Assembly: GCA_025602915.1 (NCBI GenBank)
Contig: JAHLJZ010000038.1
Coordinates: 147,752 to 211,751, forward strand
Direction of reading: 5' to 3'
Origin: Paraphysoderma sedebokerense
Lineage: Eukaryota; Blastocladiomycota; Physodermatomycetes; Physodermatales; Physodermataceae
DNA: 64,000 nt
Positions 2,764-33,693 of this stretch are shown here, piece after piece (within the stretch, counting starts at the first letter, position 1; every line of letters begins with the position of its first letter). Position numbers and translations under genes: made by a program. Below the pieces are notes generated by a model. The model saw nothing but the letters and a program-made list of their open reading frames with translations. It was not told where the DNA came from and did not search any database.

Positions 2764-3537
2764 TCACGACAACACTCTTAATACATCCATGCCTCTCGCT
2801 ATTCTCCACTTTTTCAATGCTCTGTTCTTGATCCTGTTGTCAATCTTCTTCTCCATGTTCTCCTGGGGCTCTACTGCATCAAATTTCTTATCTGTCACTG
2901 ATTCAACTTCAGATGAGGCTCCGCTATCAGACAAATCTTCATCAGACTTGGCTTCAGATTCTGAGGATGACAGATCGGCTTCGGCCAAGTCTTTTGCCCG
3001 AGCGAGGACCCACTATGAGAGAAATATTCAATAAAGCAGCTTCAATGTGACGCCACTAGCTGAACAACCACATACCTGTTTACTATTTCCTTTCAATCCT
3101 TCTAGATAAAGTAGCATCATGCCCCAATAGTCCCCGTCTGGAATCATTCCCTCGGAAAACAGGTGTTTTAACAGCCATGACTGCTTTGACTTGCTAAACT
3201 TCCACGTCGGCACATCAGACGTTATGGAACCGCTTCGGGAAGAATTAAAAGTTGATAGATAGTTCAAGTACGGCAAACAATCTGAAACGGAAGTCAGTTA
3301 TATGTTAGGCTCGCGGATAGAAAAAGTATCCATTGAAGAAAAGCTTACAAACCTTTTTCTTCGCATTCGTGCTTTGTACTTTTTCCACCTGTAGGAGACT
3401 TCTCTGATTTAATGGTAGAACCATCTGTCGATCCGGACGGAACCATGCTGACGGCAGCATTCGATTGCTTATGCCTCTTCGTTGTGTGTGGAAGAGGGGT
3501 CGTATCATTAAGCGCTTTCCGTTTTTGTGATAAAGCC
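2764..3537 (-). CDS. WKF-domain protein (C7orf50-like)
   Basis: Three exons are visible: about 3537-3354, then one ending near 3076, then about 3011-2764. The start is at MALSQKRKAL. After a basic N terminus, the middle exon carries the WKF domain: TWKFSKSKQSWLLKHLFSEG, then IPD and LLYLEGLKGNSKQ. This matches the conserved WKF...QxWLLxH...IPD...LxYLEGLKG pattern of the C7orf50 family. The last exon continues WVLARAKDLAEADL, has an acidic Ser/Asp/Glu block, and ends in a basic RIKNRALKKWRIARG segment. Family members are small nucleolar proteins linked to ribosome assembly; the exact role is not known. The gene is divergent from POL5 with about 236 nt between the starts, so the two may share a promoter. 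Confidence 0.82.
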
Positions 3538-28147: not shown

Positions 28148-28198
28148 AGGACGAGTTAAATGAATTTTTGAATACTAAATCAGAGAGGCCACTTTCAG

Positions 28199-28528
28199 CG
28201 GTTATCTAGACGAGGAACAAGATAAATCTGAAAATGATGAAACCAAAGATGAATCATACAAGAATTTGGAAAAGTTTGATCGCCTCGTCTACAAGGTAGA
28301 TATGTATGTGTGCTATCCGCCGATTACAAGTAGTCACTCACCAGATTTTTGTTTAAGGACGTGCCGCAACAGATTGATAATTACAACTGTGGGGTTTTCG
28401 TTATAGAATACATACGACGGATGATATTAGGAGCGGATATGACATCGCCAATTGATGGGGATGTGTTAAGATTGAAGATATTAGAAGCCTTGCAAAAGGT
28501 TTCCATAGAGCCCCTCAGTCGGACTTGA
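28199..28528 (+). pseudogene. Ulp1-like (C48) cysteine peptidase fragment inside the element
   Basis: Two short exons (28199-28295 and 28358-28528, AAG acceptor) join in frame as ...RLVYK | DVPQQIDNYNCGVFVIEYIR RMILGADMTS and end at a TGA. The Q-x-D-x-x-x-C-G-V-F block is the oxyanion-Gln and catalytic-Cys region of Ulp1/SENP peptidases. The preceding catalytic His and Asp blocks are not seen, so this is a fragment or the upstream exons are lost. Its location between inverted repeats marks it as transposon cargo. Confidence 0.6.
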
Positions 28529-29070: not shown

Positions 29071-30987
29071 TTAAATATCTACAACGCCATACACCAAACA
29101 CCTCGGACCGCCGACTCTACTCTCCACCACTTCCACCAACTCCAACCTACAACCCCCACCCATAACCTCTTTATTCAATCGTTCCACCAACTTTGTCACC
29201 TCCAAAAACTGTCCCAACCCAGCTTCAAATAAAACGTGTCCCCCAATTTTAATCAACTTCGGTCCCATCGTCAAGATACTTTGAACGATTGTTTCGTAGG
29301 ATTCTAAACCTGATGTACCAGAGAACAACGCGATAGATGGTTCGTGAGTGATCATTTGACTTTGTTGTTGTACGGTGTGGTTGGATGTCGAAGTCAGGGA
29401 GGGGAGGTAAGGTGGGTTGGAAACTATCATGTCAAATGGAGGTTTAAAGTTATGGTGAGTCTGTGTAAGGGAACCGGGAAAACAGTCGACTTGGTTTGGA
29501 AGATTGTTTAATTTTGAAAAGTCGAGGTTTATAAATTTTGCCCGGTCAGTCAAGTTGTGTCGTATGGCGTTTTGGCGGGCAATACAGAGCGCATCATCCG
29601 ACACATCTAGACCGATACCAACGGCATTTTTGACGTGATGTAGAATCGATAATAAAATACAGCCGCTTCCTGTACCGAGATCTAATATTTTGGGTGAATT
29701 AGAATTAGAAAGTAACGGGATTGCTTTGGAAATGAGCGTTTCAGTAGATGGTCTTGGAATCATGACTGCCGGGGAAACAGTAAATGTCAAGCCAAAGAAT
29801 TCCTAGGCACAGAGGGTTAATTGAATCAACCGAAATACGATGTACAAATCATGCTGTACCTTGTGGCCCGCAATATACGCCACTGGTTTCCCTTTCTGAA
29901 GATCCATTTCTTCAGCATCCACATGTACATCCACCCCCGCCTTTTCCAACTCTTCCAACATTCTTTTCTGCTTCGCTTCCCAAAACTTCATTTCTCTATT
30001 CCTCAACGCCTCAAATTTCGGGTTCTCTGCCACTTCAAATTCCATCGTCTCCCCCGTCACAGGATGCCGAAACTTCATAAACCGTAACATCAAAAACATT
30101 CCCTTTTGTCTACTATTTTGGAGTTGTCTTGTATCCCCTGAATTCCCGATGACCGGTATCCCAGCGTTTAAACAATGTATTTGGATTTGATGGCCAACGA
30201 AACCGGAAATAGGTTCAGCGTCTACGCTTGAGATATAATCTGATGCTGTACATTTCGTTTCTTGAATGAGGGTTAACCTTGTAGACGCCGGTTTCGATTC
30301 GATTGGATCTGTGATAATAATTTCTGACGGGGACTTAAAATCAATGTGTGGTTGTGACGAGGGTTGAATTTTATTCGAGGATTCGGTGGATAAACTGTTG
30401 GACGATCGTGAATTGGCGGTCGGAAATGAACCAATCACTAAAGCTCTATATCTTGTCTGTATCATATTATTCTTCCATAATTTAATCAACTGTTTCCGAA
30501 CTTGAACCGTTTTGGCGACCAATACTAACCCAGTCAATGATTTTCCGAGTTGATTGATACATTGCGGTCTTTCCAGATACTCGTCACTCGACGGACCATC
30601 TTGTTCGGTTCTCTCAGGAAAAGACAACAAAAATTTCAACACATGTTCTACATTTTTTTCTGGTGCGGTTTGGCAAGTTAAATTAGACGGTTTATGTACT
30701 ACAGCTAGGTACCGATCTTCGTATACAATCGGGATATCAATGTTATTTCGGGATCGTTCAAACTGGACGGTATCGTGAATCAAAGTGATACGGTCGTCGG
30801 TGTGTACGACTCTTGAATCTTCGGCTGGGATATCGTTGACGAGGATTTGACGAGATTTTAGGAATGAGTGTGCGATGCTTCGGCTTGTGAGGACACTGGG
30901 GAAGGCATGACGAACGAGTTTGGATAGCCGTTGGCCGTCTTCGGAAGGAGTGACTGTGTGGTTTAGACGAGTGGGAGAAGACTTCAT
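29071..30987 (-). CDS. fusion: S4 domain + degenerate RluA-type pseudouridine synthase + PrmC/HemK methyltransferase
   Basis: Two exons (30987-29860, 29802-29071) give 619 residues. Residues about 15-70 form an S4 RNA-binding domain (DGQRLSKLVRHAFPSVL...SRQILVNDIP). Residues about 85-330 follow the RluA fold (VYEDRYLAVVHKPSNLTCQ, TRYRALVIGSF, GHQIQIHCLNAGIPVIGN, KFRHPVTGETMEFEV). The catalytic HRLD box is replaced by NQLG at about 145-148, so the aspartate is missing. From about 345 on comes HemK: GKPVAYIAGHK | EFFGLTFTV, MIPRPSTETL, ILDLGTGSGCILLSIL and FDMIVSNPPYLPSL with the NPPY catalytic motif. HemK enzymes methylate the Gln of the GGQ motif in release factors. The splice joining the parts is exact. 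A mitochondrial role is likely but inferred. Confidence 0.88.
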
Positions 30988-31389: not shown

Positions 31390-32484
31390 TCATTTGATCT
31401 CGTATTCACCATCCACAACGCCTCCGCTACCTCCTCGACCATCTACATCTACATTGACTTTCCTGCCATCCGCATCTACCACACTCAGTCGTCTCAGAAA
31501 CACTCGTCCAGAGTCTTGCTCAACTTCGCCTACTGCCTCAACTTCGATACCATCTCCCATCTCATATCTACTTTTAGAGGCTACGCCAAACACAATGGTC
31601 AATTTGTTCTCTCTCTTATTCCGTCCTAAGCCACCGCTGCTCATTGACCTTGAATCAATCATGAACGGACGAGTAAAGTTCAAATCGTCAAGATTGGTGT
31701 ATCTAAATATTTTGGACAAAGCGTCCGATTGAGAAGTCTGAAATTGCAATTTTTGGACAAGTGTATCCGTGGCGAGACGATGTAACTGAGTGACGGCGTG
31801 GGAAGAAGGGTACATCAACGGCACTCGAAAATCTCGAGCCAATTGTTCTATCATTTTACTCAGTCCAGCAAAGGGCGGATACACATTGGATCCCGCGGAA
31901 GCGGAAGTGCGACCGAATAAATCATTTCGGTCTTTTTGGTTCTTACGGTTCATCATCCATGGATCAAAATCGCTGTAAGGTGAGACTCCGAAATAAGATC
32001 TTGCAAATCTATACACTCCATATCCGACGGCTAACCCCACTATGGGTGTGAGTAAACCGAGGATGGGTTGCACAAAGAGGAACGTCAAGAAACCAGCTCC
32101 CACCGAGATTCCAATTTTCGCAGGGCGGGAAAGTTGAGAAAATGGGTCATCCGAACGACTTGAATAGTAACGGCGGAGGCAGCTCGACCGAAGTGAAGGT
32201 AGAGATCTGACGGAAAGTATCAAGTTGAATGGAGATGAATGACATAGTTTTCGGACGAAGTAAGCTGAGGAAGTCGATAAACTTCGATGGGAAAACGGGG
32301 AAATAAGTTGTGTTTGACGAAACACAAATAATGGTTGAGAACTGTTCATTAAGTCGTTTCCGAGTTTATGAACGAATCGTCGATAGCTCGGTGTGACAAA
32401 ACGACAATTGTGTGAATGTGCGAGGCGGCTGATAAATCCAAAATTCATCGACAGTGGTAAAGACTTTGATTTCAAGAGATGCAT
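31390..32484 (-). CDS. mitochondrial-looking membrane protein, unidentified
   Basis: A single frame of 364 residues. The first 110 or so residues are rich in Arg, Ser and His with almost no acidic residues (FISRLAHSHNCRFVTPSYRR, LRRYYSSRSDD), like a long mitochondrial presequence. One or two hydrophobic segments follow (IGISVGAGFLTFLFVQPIL, LLTPIVGLAVGYGVYRF). The C-terminal half is soluble, with a beta-rich end (KLTIVFGVASKSRYEMGDG, GEVEQDSGRVFLRRLSVVD) and a Gly-rich tail. The layout fits an inner-membrane protein with a matrix or intermembrane domain. I do not recognise the family. Confidence 0.65.
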   Translation of the reverse strand: MHLLKSKSLPLSMNFGFISRLAHSHNCRFVTPSYRRFVHKLGNDLMNSSQPLFVFRQTQLISPFSHRSLSTSSAYFVRKLCHSSPFNLILSVRSLPSLRSSCLRRYYSSRSDDPFSQLSRPAKIGISVGAGFLTFLFVQPILGLLTPIVGLAVGYGVYRFARSYFGVSPYSDFDPWMMNRKNQKDRNDLFGRTSASAGSNVYPPFAGLSKMIEQLARDFRVPLMYPSSHAVTQLHRLATDTLVQKLQFQTSQSDALSKIFRYTNLDDLNFTRPFMIDSRSMSSGGLGRNKRENKLTIVFGVASKSRYEMGDGIEVEAVGEVEQDSGRVFLRRLSVVDADGRKVNVDVDGRGGSGGVVDGEYEIK

Positions 32485-33693
32485 GGCCCCTATAATAGTT
32501 TTATCTATTGAGTTCTAGTAAGTCTAGAATCTAGATGTTCGATGATAGGGGATAGGAGCGGAACAGAGAAAAGACGAGGCGGGCGGCGGCAAGCAAATCC
32601 GCAATCAGTTGGAAATTGGACGGCCCCGCTCTCCCACCTCTTCCGAGTCTTGACAACTGTCTTGACCTCTGGTGACAAGACCACTGCCGATCCATTGACG
32701 AAGGTGGCCACATATGATGCAATTTGAGTGTGAAAGTGATGCGAGTATATATTTTACCCAGGTGAATTGACGATCGATGTGTTGATAAAAGTTTTGCTCT
32801 AATTGGGATGATAGAACCCTAGATGGCGCTGGCGAGAGCGGCAGAATAGATTCAGCACTCCCTCAGTTGGCTCAACGAGCATTTAGAGATCACCTTGCGA
32901 GAAAAAGAGAGCCTACTCATGTGCATTTATTTTGTATATGCTTTCAATAATGGAAAATATGAAGATTGTGACAAGGTGCAGCTGGATTAATGTATTTTTA
33001 TTTATTTTGGGTGGATCTAAGGGGAGCTGCGGATTGGGTTATTGGTCATTAGGTGTGTGCTTTGGATCCAAAGCAGTAATTTCAGGACCAGTGACATCAG
33101 ACGTGAAGTGTAGTAATTTTCAAAGGGTCCAAAAATCCGCTCCGTCGGTGTAAATTAGCAGGTCATTTAGAGGTGGCTTGATAGCCGAGAGTTTATTGTG
33201 CGATTGCGACTGAGCAGAAGAGCGGGAGGGGGTGGTCGTGATATGGGAGCTTTGAATGAGAGCAGTGCTGAGTGGCAGTGGGGAGCCAAGCGGGGAGGAT
33301 AAGCCGAGAGGGAATTGAAGAGGGAATGGGGAATTGGGAATGGGGAGGAATGGGGAATGGAATGAACAGTGACGCGTTGGGCAGTCTGAGTGAACAGATG
33401 AACGGGGACAGCGTGAGGGTGTGACTGTGTTGCTCAACCGCCGGCCTGGCCCTCTCTGCTGATAATTGGAAATGGCCTGGGCAGAGTGGCACACATTATT
33501 TCATTTCCCAGATTCCCTCTCATTCCCTCCCATCCCTCATCCCCCACATCTCTCATCTCACAACAGAAAAAAAGGTACAAAGCCCCCGTGCTAAGGGAAC
33601 ACACTCTCACTCTCTCCCCTGTATATATATATACTCCCTCCCTCTTCCCTCTCCCTTGATCGATCCCCCTATCCTCATTCCAACCCAAGCACT
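32485..33693. other. intergenic region upstream of the kinase gene
   Basis: About 1.2 kb with no supported gene. It includes a purine-rich minisatellite-like tract (33308-33361) and a CT-rich stretch ending just before the kinase start. It is probably an extended promoter and 5' UTR. Confidence 0.5.
33308..33361 (+). repeat. GGGAAT-type purine-rich imperfect tandem repeat
   Basis: Repeated units of the kind GGGAAT, GGGGAAT and GGGAATT follow each other over about 54 nt, about 330 nt upstream of the kinase start codon. Purine asymmetry and G-runs could allow triplex or quadruplex structures. Confidence 0.6.

Follow-up and report, generated by a model that had tools for sequence, protein, structure and literature searches.

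Structure of the fusion gene

The window analysed here, a stretch of 64,000 nucleotides of Paraphysoderma sedebokerense DNA, carries on its minus strand a two-exon gene whose predicted product joins an RluA-like pseudouridine-synthase module to a PrmC/HemK-type methyltransferase. The coordinates, strand, intron and motifs given for this gene in the original prediction were confirmed in the sequence. The features are listed below with their positions in the window and, where useful, the residues of the fusion protein:

29860-30987 (-): exon 1, 376 codons; S4-like and RluA-fold module, linker helix and first PrmC motif
30778-30975 (-): predicted S4-like RNA-binding fold, residues 5-70; 46 bits with an S4-region HMM
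30172-30708 (-): PseudoU_synth_2 domain, residues 94-272; 41.6 bits with PF00849 (cut-off 26.8)
30544-30555 (-): residues 145-148 read NQLG instead of HRLD/HRID, with Gly at the position of the catalytic Asp
30175-30192 (-): residues 266-271 read HQIQIH instead of HQIRVH, with Gln at the position of the Arg
29941-30021 (-): long helix predicted by AF2, residues 323-349, linking the RluA fold to the PrmC part
29860-29895 (-): PrmC entry motif KGKPVAYIAGHK, in exon 1
29803-29859 (-): 57-bp GT-AG intron, the last three bases of which are an in-frame TAG that ends the unspliced frame
29071-29802 (-): exon 2; PrmC/HemK methyltransferase core (TIGR03534) and stop codon
29740-29760 (-): IPRPSTE motif (IPRPDTE in E. 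coli PrmC)
29659-29682 (-): SAM-binding motif DLGTGSGC
29407-29418 (-): NPPY glutamine-binding motif, preceded by Ser

The ATG of exon 1 sits directly after an in-frame TAA, and the spliced fusion has 619 residues. The protein encoded by exon 2 opens with EFFGLTFTV and carries IPRPSTE, DLGTGSGC and SNPPY. The assembly (27.3 Mb in 195 contigs) contained one match to the fusion. Just downstream of the gene, at 28179-28528 on the plus strand, there is a fragment, DNYNCGVFVIEYIRRM, that is broken over frames and that we take to resemble the end of a Ulp1-type protease. Upstream, on the same strand as the fusion gene, lies a 374-residue open frame (31390-32514, minus strand) with no Pfam family above cut-off.

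The two halves had been described as joined by an exact splice. When GT-AG pairs in the intron region were compared, 24 of 254 were in frame and open, and the 57-nt intron gave the highest score with a PrmC HMM made from 18 bacterial rows, 17 loci plus E. coli (183.4 bits, against 169.8 for the next pair and 163.2 for exon 2 alone). With the NCBIfam model TIGR03534 the spliced protein scored 176.8 bits and exon 2 alone 157.8, and splicing thus raised the PrmC match by 19-20 bits. Release-factor genes of this genome contain two introns of similar length (59 and 63 nt), assigned by eye to GT-AG sites that restore the frame. The splice itself was therefore upheld as the best of the open in-frame pairs, but the joint between the domains lies inside exon 1 rather than at the splice. 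No stop codon or intron separates the RluA module from the PrmC entry motif, and the intron falls inside the PrmC part. The joint is already contained in exon 1, so the fusion would stand without the intron or its splicing. That the locus represents two separate genes or an assembly artefact is extremely improbable, since the entry motif shares an uninterrupted exon with the whole RluA module and a PrmC gene beginning in exon 2 would be left without it.

The same intron could in principle give two products. It is a multiple of three in length and open until its last codon, TAG, so that intron retention would yield a 394-residue RluA-only protein ending at that TAG, and splicing would yield the fusion. 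However, the retained form would finish with 12 residues of PrmC followed by 18 encoded by the intron, and we regard this arrangement as quite improbable.

The methyltransferase half

All of the core motifs of the methyltransferase were present in the fusion. The protein passed the cut-off of the HemK family model TIGR00536 (115.5 bits) both when spliced (146.4 bits) and with exon 2 alone (129.3 bits), and missed the higher equivalog cut-off of TIGR03534 (199.1 bits). The TIGR03534 alignment covered model positions 39-233 of 253, and the PrmC N-terminal domain (PrmC_N, PF17827), which scored 78 bits in E. coli PrmC, had no match in the fusion at E ≤ 1. The original description of a complete HemK/PrmC methyltransferase is therefore borne out for the core motifs but not for the N-terminal domain, which was undetected.

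Profiles placed the fusion with PrmC rather than with PrmB (176.8 vs 103 bits), and pairwise BLAST against the E. coli proteins gave 87.0 bits for PrmC and 80.1 for PrmB. The NPPY motif, described as intact, is indeed present in exon 2 as SNPPY. The residue before NPPY is described as Ser or another small residue in PrmC, HEMK1 and Mtq1 and as different in HEMK2 (PMC8904536), and the fusion has the small residue. At the level of sequence, the back half keeps the SAM and SNPPY sites of a PrmC/HEMK1-type protein glutamine methyltransferase, which is its predicted activity.

The fold of the RluA-like module

The PF00849 score given above was well over its cut-off, and TIGR00005 matched residues 16-327 of the fusion at 105.1 bits, below its cut-off of 192.7. 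The Pfam S4 model had no match in the fusion at E ≤ 1; the S4-region HMM that recognized the N-terminal residues was built from 76 of 80 bacterial RluA rows. An AF2 model of exon 1, for which the 80 bacterial rows served as the alignment, had a mean pLDDT of 83.7 and a pTM of 0.76, with pLDDT of 84-98 per ten-residue block over residues 1-70. Confidence was low in two places, near residues 195-209 and where exon 1 runs into the PrmC part (pLDDT ~50), the latter being modelled without exon 2. The best PDB match of the module in Foldseek was RluD (2ist, E 8.7e-18), and the second was 7bl5, in which RluD sits on a pre-50S particle. Further matches were proteins from assembly intermediates of the trypanosomatid mitoribosome (6yxx, 7aoi and 7am2), and RPUSD4 (5uba) ranked 19th. 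Whole-chain TM-scores to RluD were modest (0.49 and 0.55, rmsd 7.3), which indicates that the placement of the domains differs or is uncertain in the model. On the strength of this model, an S4 plus pseudouridine-synthase fold is confidently predicted for the front half of the fusion.

The hydrophobic pattern of the bacterial proteins was largely kept. Of the 66 columns with at least 90% hydrophobic residues in the bacterial rows, 60 (0.91) were hydrophobic in the fusion, against 8 of the 90 columns with at most 10%. The bacterial rows themselves ranged from 0.88 to 1 with a median of 0.98, which puts the fusion near the bottom of their range. This pattern, read from one sequence, fits a retained pseudoenzyme better than it fits free decay.

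Loss of the pseudouridine-synthase active site

The bacterial relatives used for comparison were the best 80 of 439 candidates, and their identity to the fusion was 20-30%. As had been predicted, the HRLD box reads NQLG: the Asp, which has been established as catalytic in the RluA family (PMC12716993), occupies its column in 80 of 80 bacterial relatives and is replaced by Gly in the fusion (D148G). Likewise, the second box reads GHQIQIH, as first described, with Gln in place of an Arg (R269Q). This Arg, the Arg of the first box (R146Q) and an additional Asp (D282N) were each found in all 80 relatives. In motif III this conservation is selected, because the search for the relatives started from an RTHQ-like pattern of an alignment that contained the fusion; at the catalytic Asp and D282 it is not. 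Among the 24 columns at least 97.5% conserved in the bacteria, 12 were changed in the fusion, including three mild substitutions (V144I, T261S and V270I) and one gap, and the alignment of motif III at residues 263-265 is uncertain by one residue. The 12 columns that were kept include K99, P100, G153, Y180, G262, H266, Q267 and H271. The Asp is retained at all four further RluA loci that the genome search found, in the forms HRID, HRLD, NRLD and HQID.

An alternative exon restoring HRLD had been named as a possible objection and was searched for. None of the 377 in-frame open variants of exon 1, from 1236 GT-AG pairs, gave HRLD. Two variants created NKLE or NKMD, both in the linker, and the best gain in RluA-HMM score was 3.8 bits, also in the linker. 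Translation of exon 1 and the 500 bases ahead of it in all three forward frames gave no match to [HN][RQK][LIMV]D. By both the alignment and the structural model, the front half of the fusion keeps its fold and has lost the residues needed for pseudouridylation.

These changes could be read in two other ways. One is that the RluA half still acts on RNA through an unusual chemistry that does not involve the Asp. Lys99, Tyr180 and the His and Gln of motif III are retained, and a review (PMC6414753) reports that two mt-mRNAs were less pseudouridylated after depletion of human RPUSD3, another protein without the Asp. However, the Asp is universal in the bacterial rows, and a later survey reports no noticeable activity of RPUSD3 on rRNA or tRNA (PMC12716993), and an active RluA half seems very unlikely.

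The other is that the RluA half is a functionless remnant of an accidental fusion, kept only because PrmC follows it in frame. Half of the near-invariant columns are changed and identity to the bacterial relatives is low, as such a passenger would have it. Against this, the 376 codons are open, the hydrophobic core is kept, the S4-like region is still recognized and the fold is predicted with confidence. In addition, the changes cluster in the catalytic motifs, while K99, Y180, G153, H266, Q267 and H271 are unchanged. We consider a functionless remnant unlikely.

Paralogs and possible substrates in the same genome

The genome also contains a stand-alone HEMK1/Mtq1-like gene with SNPPY (L014, on contig C134) and a HEMK2/Mtq2-like piece with FNPPY on C6, names of this kind being based on motifs and profiles and not on a tree. 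The stand-alone gene scored 137 bits with TIGR03534, likewise under the 199.1 cut-off, and showed a partial, sub-threshold trace of PrmC_N (18.1 bits, cut-off 23.4). Because of this gene, the fusion counts as a second HemK protein of the SNPPY type and is not the sole candidate for organellar release-factor methylation.

Genes with an RF-1 domain were found on C29 (twice), C2, C24 and C60, and encode four distinct GGQ proteins. With two SNPPY-type HemK proteins and several GGQ proteins, there are at least two enzymes facing several possible targets. The gene found twice on C29 encodes a class-I release factor with the motif RASGAGGQHVN. Its two loci (L027 and L028, at C29:182101 and C29:194646) are 12.5 kb apart and identical at 3162 of 3162 bases, which points either to a segmental duplication of recent date or to duplication in the assembly. 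A second release-factor-like protein, distinct from that on C29 and with the motif RASGKGGQHVN, is encoded at C2:458329-458622 (L034/L029). One of the two SNPPY-type enzymes may have this protein as a substrate of its own.

The presence of the stand-alone gene also bears on a different reading, in which the fusion is a ribosome assembly factor, the dead RluA part being a scaffold on the precursor of the large subunit and the methyltransferase modifying a ribosomal protein rather than a release factor. PrmB modifies ribosomal protein L3, and in pairwise BLAST E. coli PrmB was nearly as close to the fusion as PrmC was. The structural relatives of the module include proteins of assembly intermediates, RPUSD3 has been proposed to have such a scaffold role, and methylation of the release factors could be left to the stand-alone Mtq1-like enzyme. 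On the other side, the profiles clearly prefer PrmC to PrmB, and we judge an assembly factor to be rather unlikely.

Origin of the two halves

Recent duplication of a host gene was considered as a source of the fusion and was unsupported for either half, as both scored higher with E. coli proteins. In BLAST comparisons the RluA half gave 66.6 bits with E. coli RluD, and 26.2 bits (E 0.034) with the best piece of the four host RluA loci, which are broken by introns that lower their scores. The PrmC half gave 87.0 bits with E. coli PrmC and 64.7 with the stand-alone HemK of the host.

No PrmC-like frame of at least 60 residues was found within 2.5 kb on either side of the 80 bacterial RluA loci, and when the fusion was used as query against 299 genomes of one bacterial phylum (298 matched), none of the matches listed joined both halves. 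This bacterial negative stops short of several phylum matches in long open frames (for example 686, 652 and 577 residues), of two long frames of 743 and 861 residues among weaker matches, and of the 402-residue frame of L129. Each of the matches listed in that phylum covered query residues 318-615, on the PrmC side. Only two PrmC-HMM hits arose near the bacterial RluA loci, and both were weak (32.7 and 25.5 bits); with this HMM the stand-alone HemK gene scored 114.8, and E. coli PrmC, whose sequence is among its rows, 339.3. In a PrmC tree of 21 rows the fusion and the stand-alone gene had long branches, and the tree gave no resolved placement for the origin of the PrmC half; the tree and the 18-row HMM used for the splice omit L123 and L127, two of the 19 loci over the cut-off, because of a frame filter, and the tree also omits L134. 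Seven of the 17 bacterial PrmC genes read (L120, L121 and L128-L132) contained NLPY and no NPPY.

Among the literature matches listed, mostly open papers, no RluA-PrmC fusion was recognized by title. As far as these searches reached, the fusion is a joining of two known families.

A possible role for the fusion

It had been proposed that the inactive RluA part has become an RNA-binding or ribosome-docking module that guides release-factor methylation, perhaps in mitochondria. The structural portion of this proposal stood, in that a predicted folded RluA module without catalytic residues is fused in frame to a PrmC/HEMK1-type core, but the functional portion is weakened by the separate SNPPY HemK gene. 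The reading that we favour, tentatively and short of calling it probable, is that the front half is an RluD-like pseudoenzyme that docks on rRNA of the large subunit or on pre-ribosomes and so brings the attached glutamine methyltransferase to a GGQ protein, perhaps a mitochondrial one. The dead RluA module would bind large-subunit rRNA or the assembling large subunit, as RluD does, and would stand in for the missing N-terminal domain of PrmC in delivering the methyltransferase. The target would be a GGQ-containing release or rescue factor, most likely an organellar one, and the fusion would act as a second HemK enzyme alongside the stand-alone Mtq1-like one. The S4-like region begins at about residue 5 and leaves little room for a presequence, and none was evident.

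Several lines of evidence favour this docking role. Both halves are encoded in one uninterrupted exon, splicing improves the PrmC match, the PrmC profile outscores that of PrmB, and Ser precedes NPPY. The RluA fold is predicted, with matches to RluD and mitoribosome intermediates, and the hydrophobic core is kept while catalytic residues are lost. RPUSD3 provides a precedent, rluD and prmC are linked genetically, and four distinct GGQ proteins are available as possible targets. The separate HEMK1/Mtq1-like gene and the missed TIGR03534 cut-off weaken it, as does the fact that the constraint on the module was read from one sequence. A more specific version, in which the RluD-like module has replaced the PrmC N-terminal domain, GGQ methylation takes place on the large subunit or is gated by it, and the enzyme is dedicated to one GGQ protein, is doubtful.

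Loss of RluD reportedly has minimal effects in wild-type E. coli, to go by the title of one paper cited in PMC5373646, and the link between rluD and prmC may therefore be specific to K-12 and its RF2 variant. The RF2-B variant is described as easing the consequences of inactivating either rluD or prmC in E. coli K-12 (PMC5373646), and loss of RluD was reported to raise stop-codon readthrough (PMC4028186). In the fusion, the folds of two proteins that genetics had already tied in K-12 are joined in one natural protein. If the docking role is true, the fusion would be evidence that a protein methyltransferase can be docked by means of an RluA fold.

Comparison with known systems

The fusion shares the SAM motif, IPRPxTE and SNPPY with the release-factor N5-glutamine methyltransferases PrmC/HemK and HEMK1/Mtq1. 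It differs from PrmC/HemK in having an RluA-fold module where PrmC_N would be expected and in missing the equivalog cut-off. With RluD and the other S4-containing RluA synthases it has in common the predicted S4-like and pseudouridine-synthase folds, the order of the motifs, K99 and Y180, whereas the catalytic Asp is replaced by Gly, the Args of HRLD and HQIR are replaced by Gln, and a methyltransferase has been added. The bifunctional PrmC/TrmB (NF002421) also combines, by the name of the model, PrmC with another translation-related enzyme. Its partner, however, is a tRNA methyltransferase, and the fusion scored 103.6 bits with this model against a cut-off of 567.

The closest parallel to the loss of the active site is human RPUSD3, an RluA-family protein in which the catalytic Asp is also replaced by Gly (PMC12716993), and the RluA fold is retained in the model of the fusion. 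RPUSD3 is described as a close homologue of RPUSD4, and the passages on RPUSD3 in the same source mention no methyltransferase part, which the fusion has (PMC12716993); the likeness to the fusion is drawn from the Asp to Gly change and the fold. Silencing of RPUSD3 is reported to deplete 16S mt-rRNA and the large mitoribosomal subunit (PMC6414753). Two mt-mRNA sites reported to depend on RPUSD3 (PMC6414753) put in dispute whether it is a precedent for an RluA protein that is fully dead. The fusion would provide a case in which to test why some pseudouridine synthases, RPUSD3 among them, persist without the Asp.
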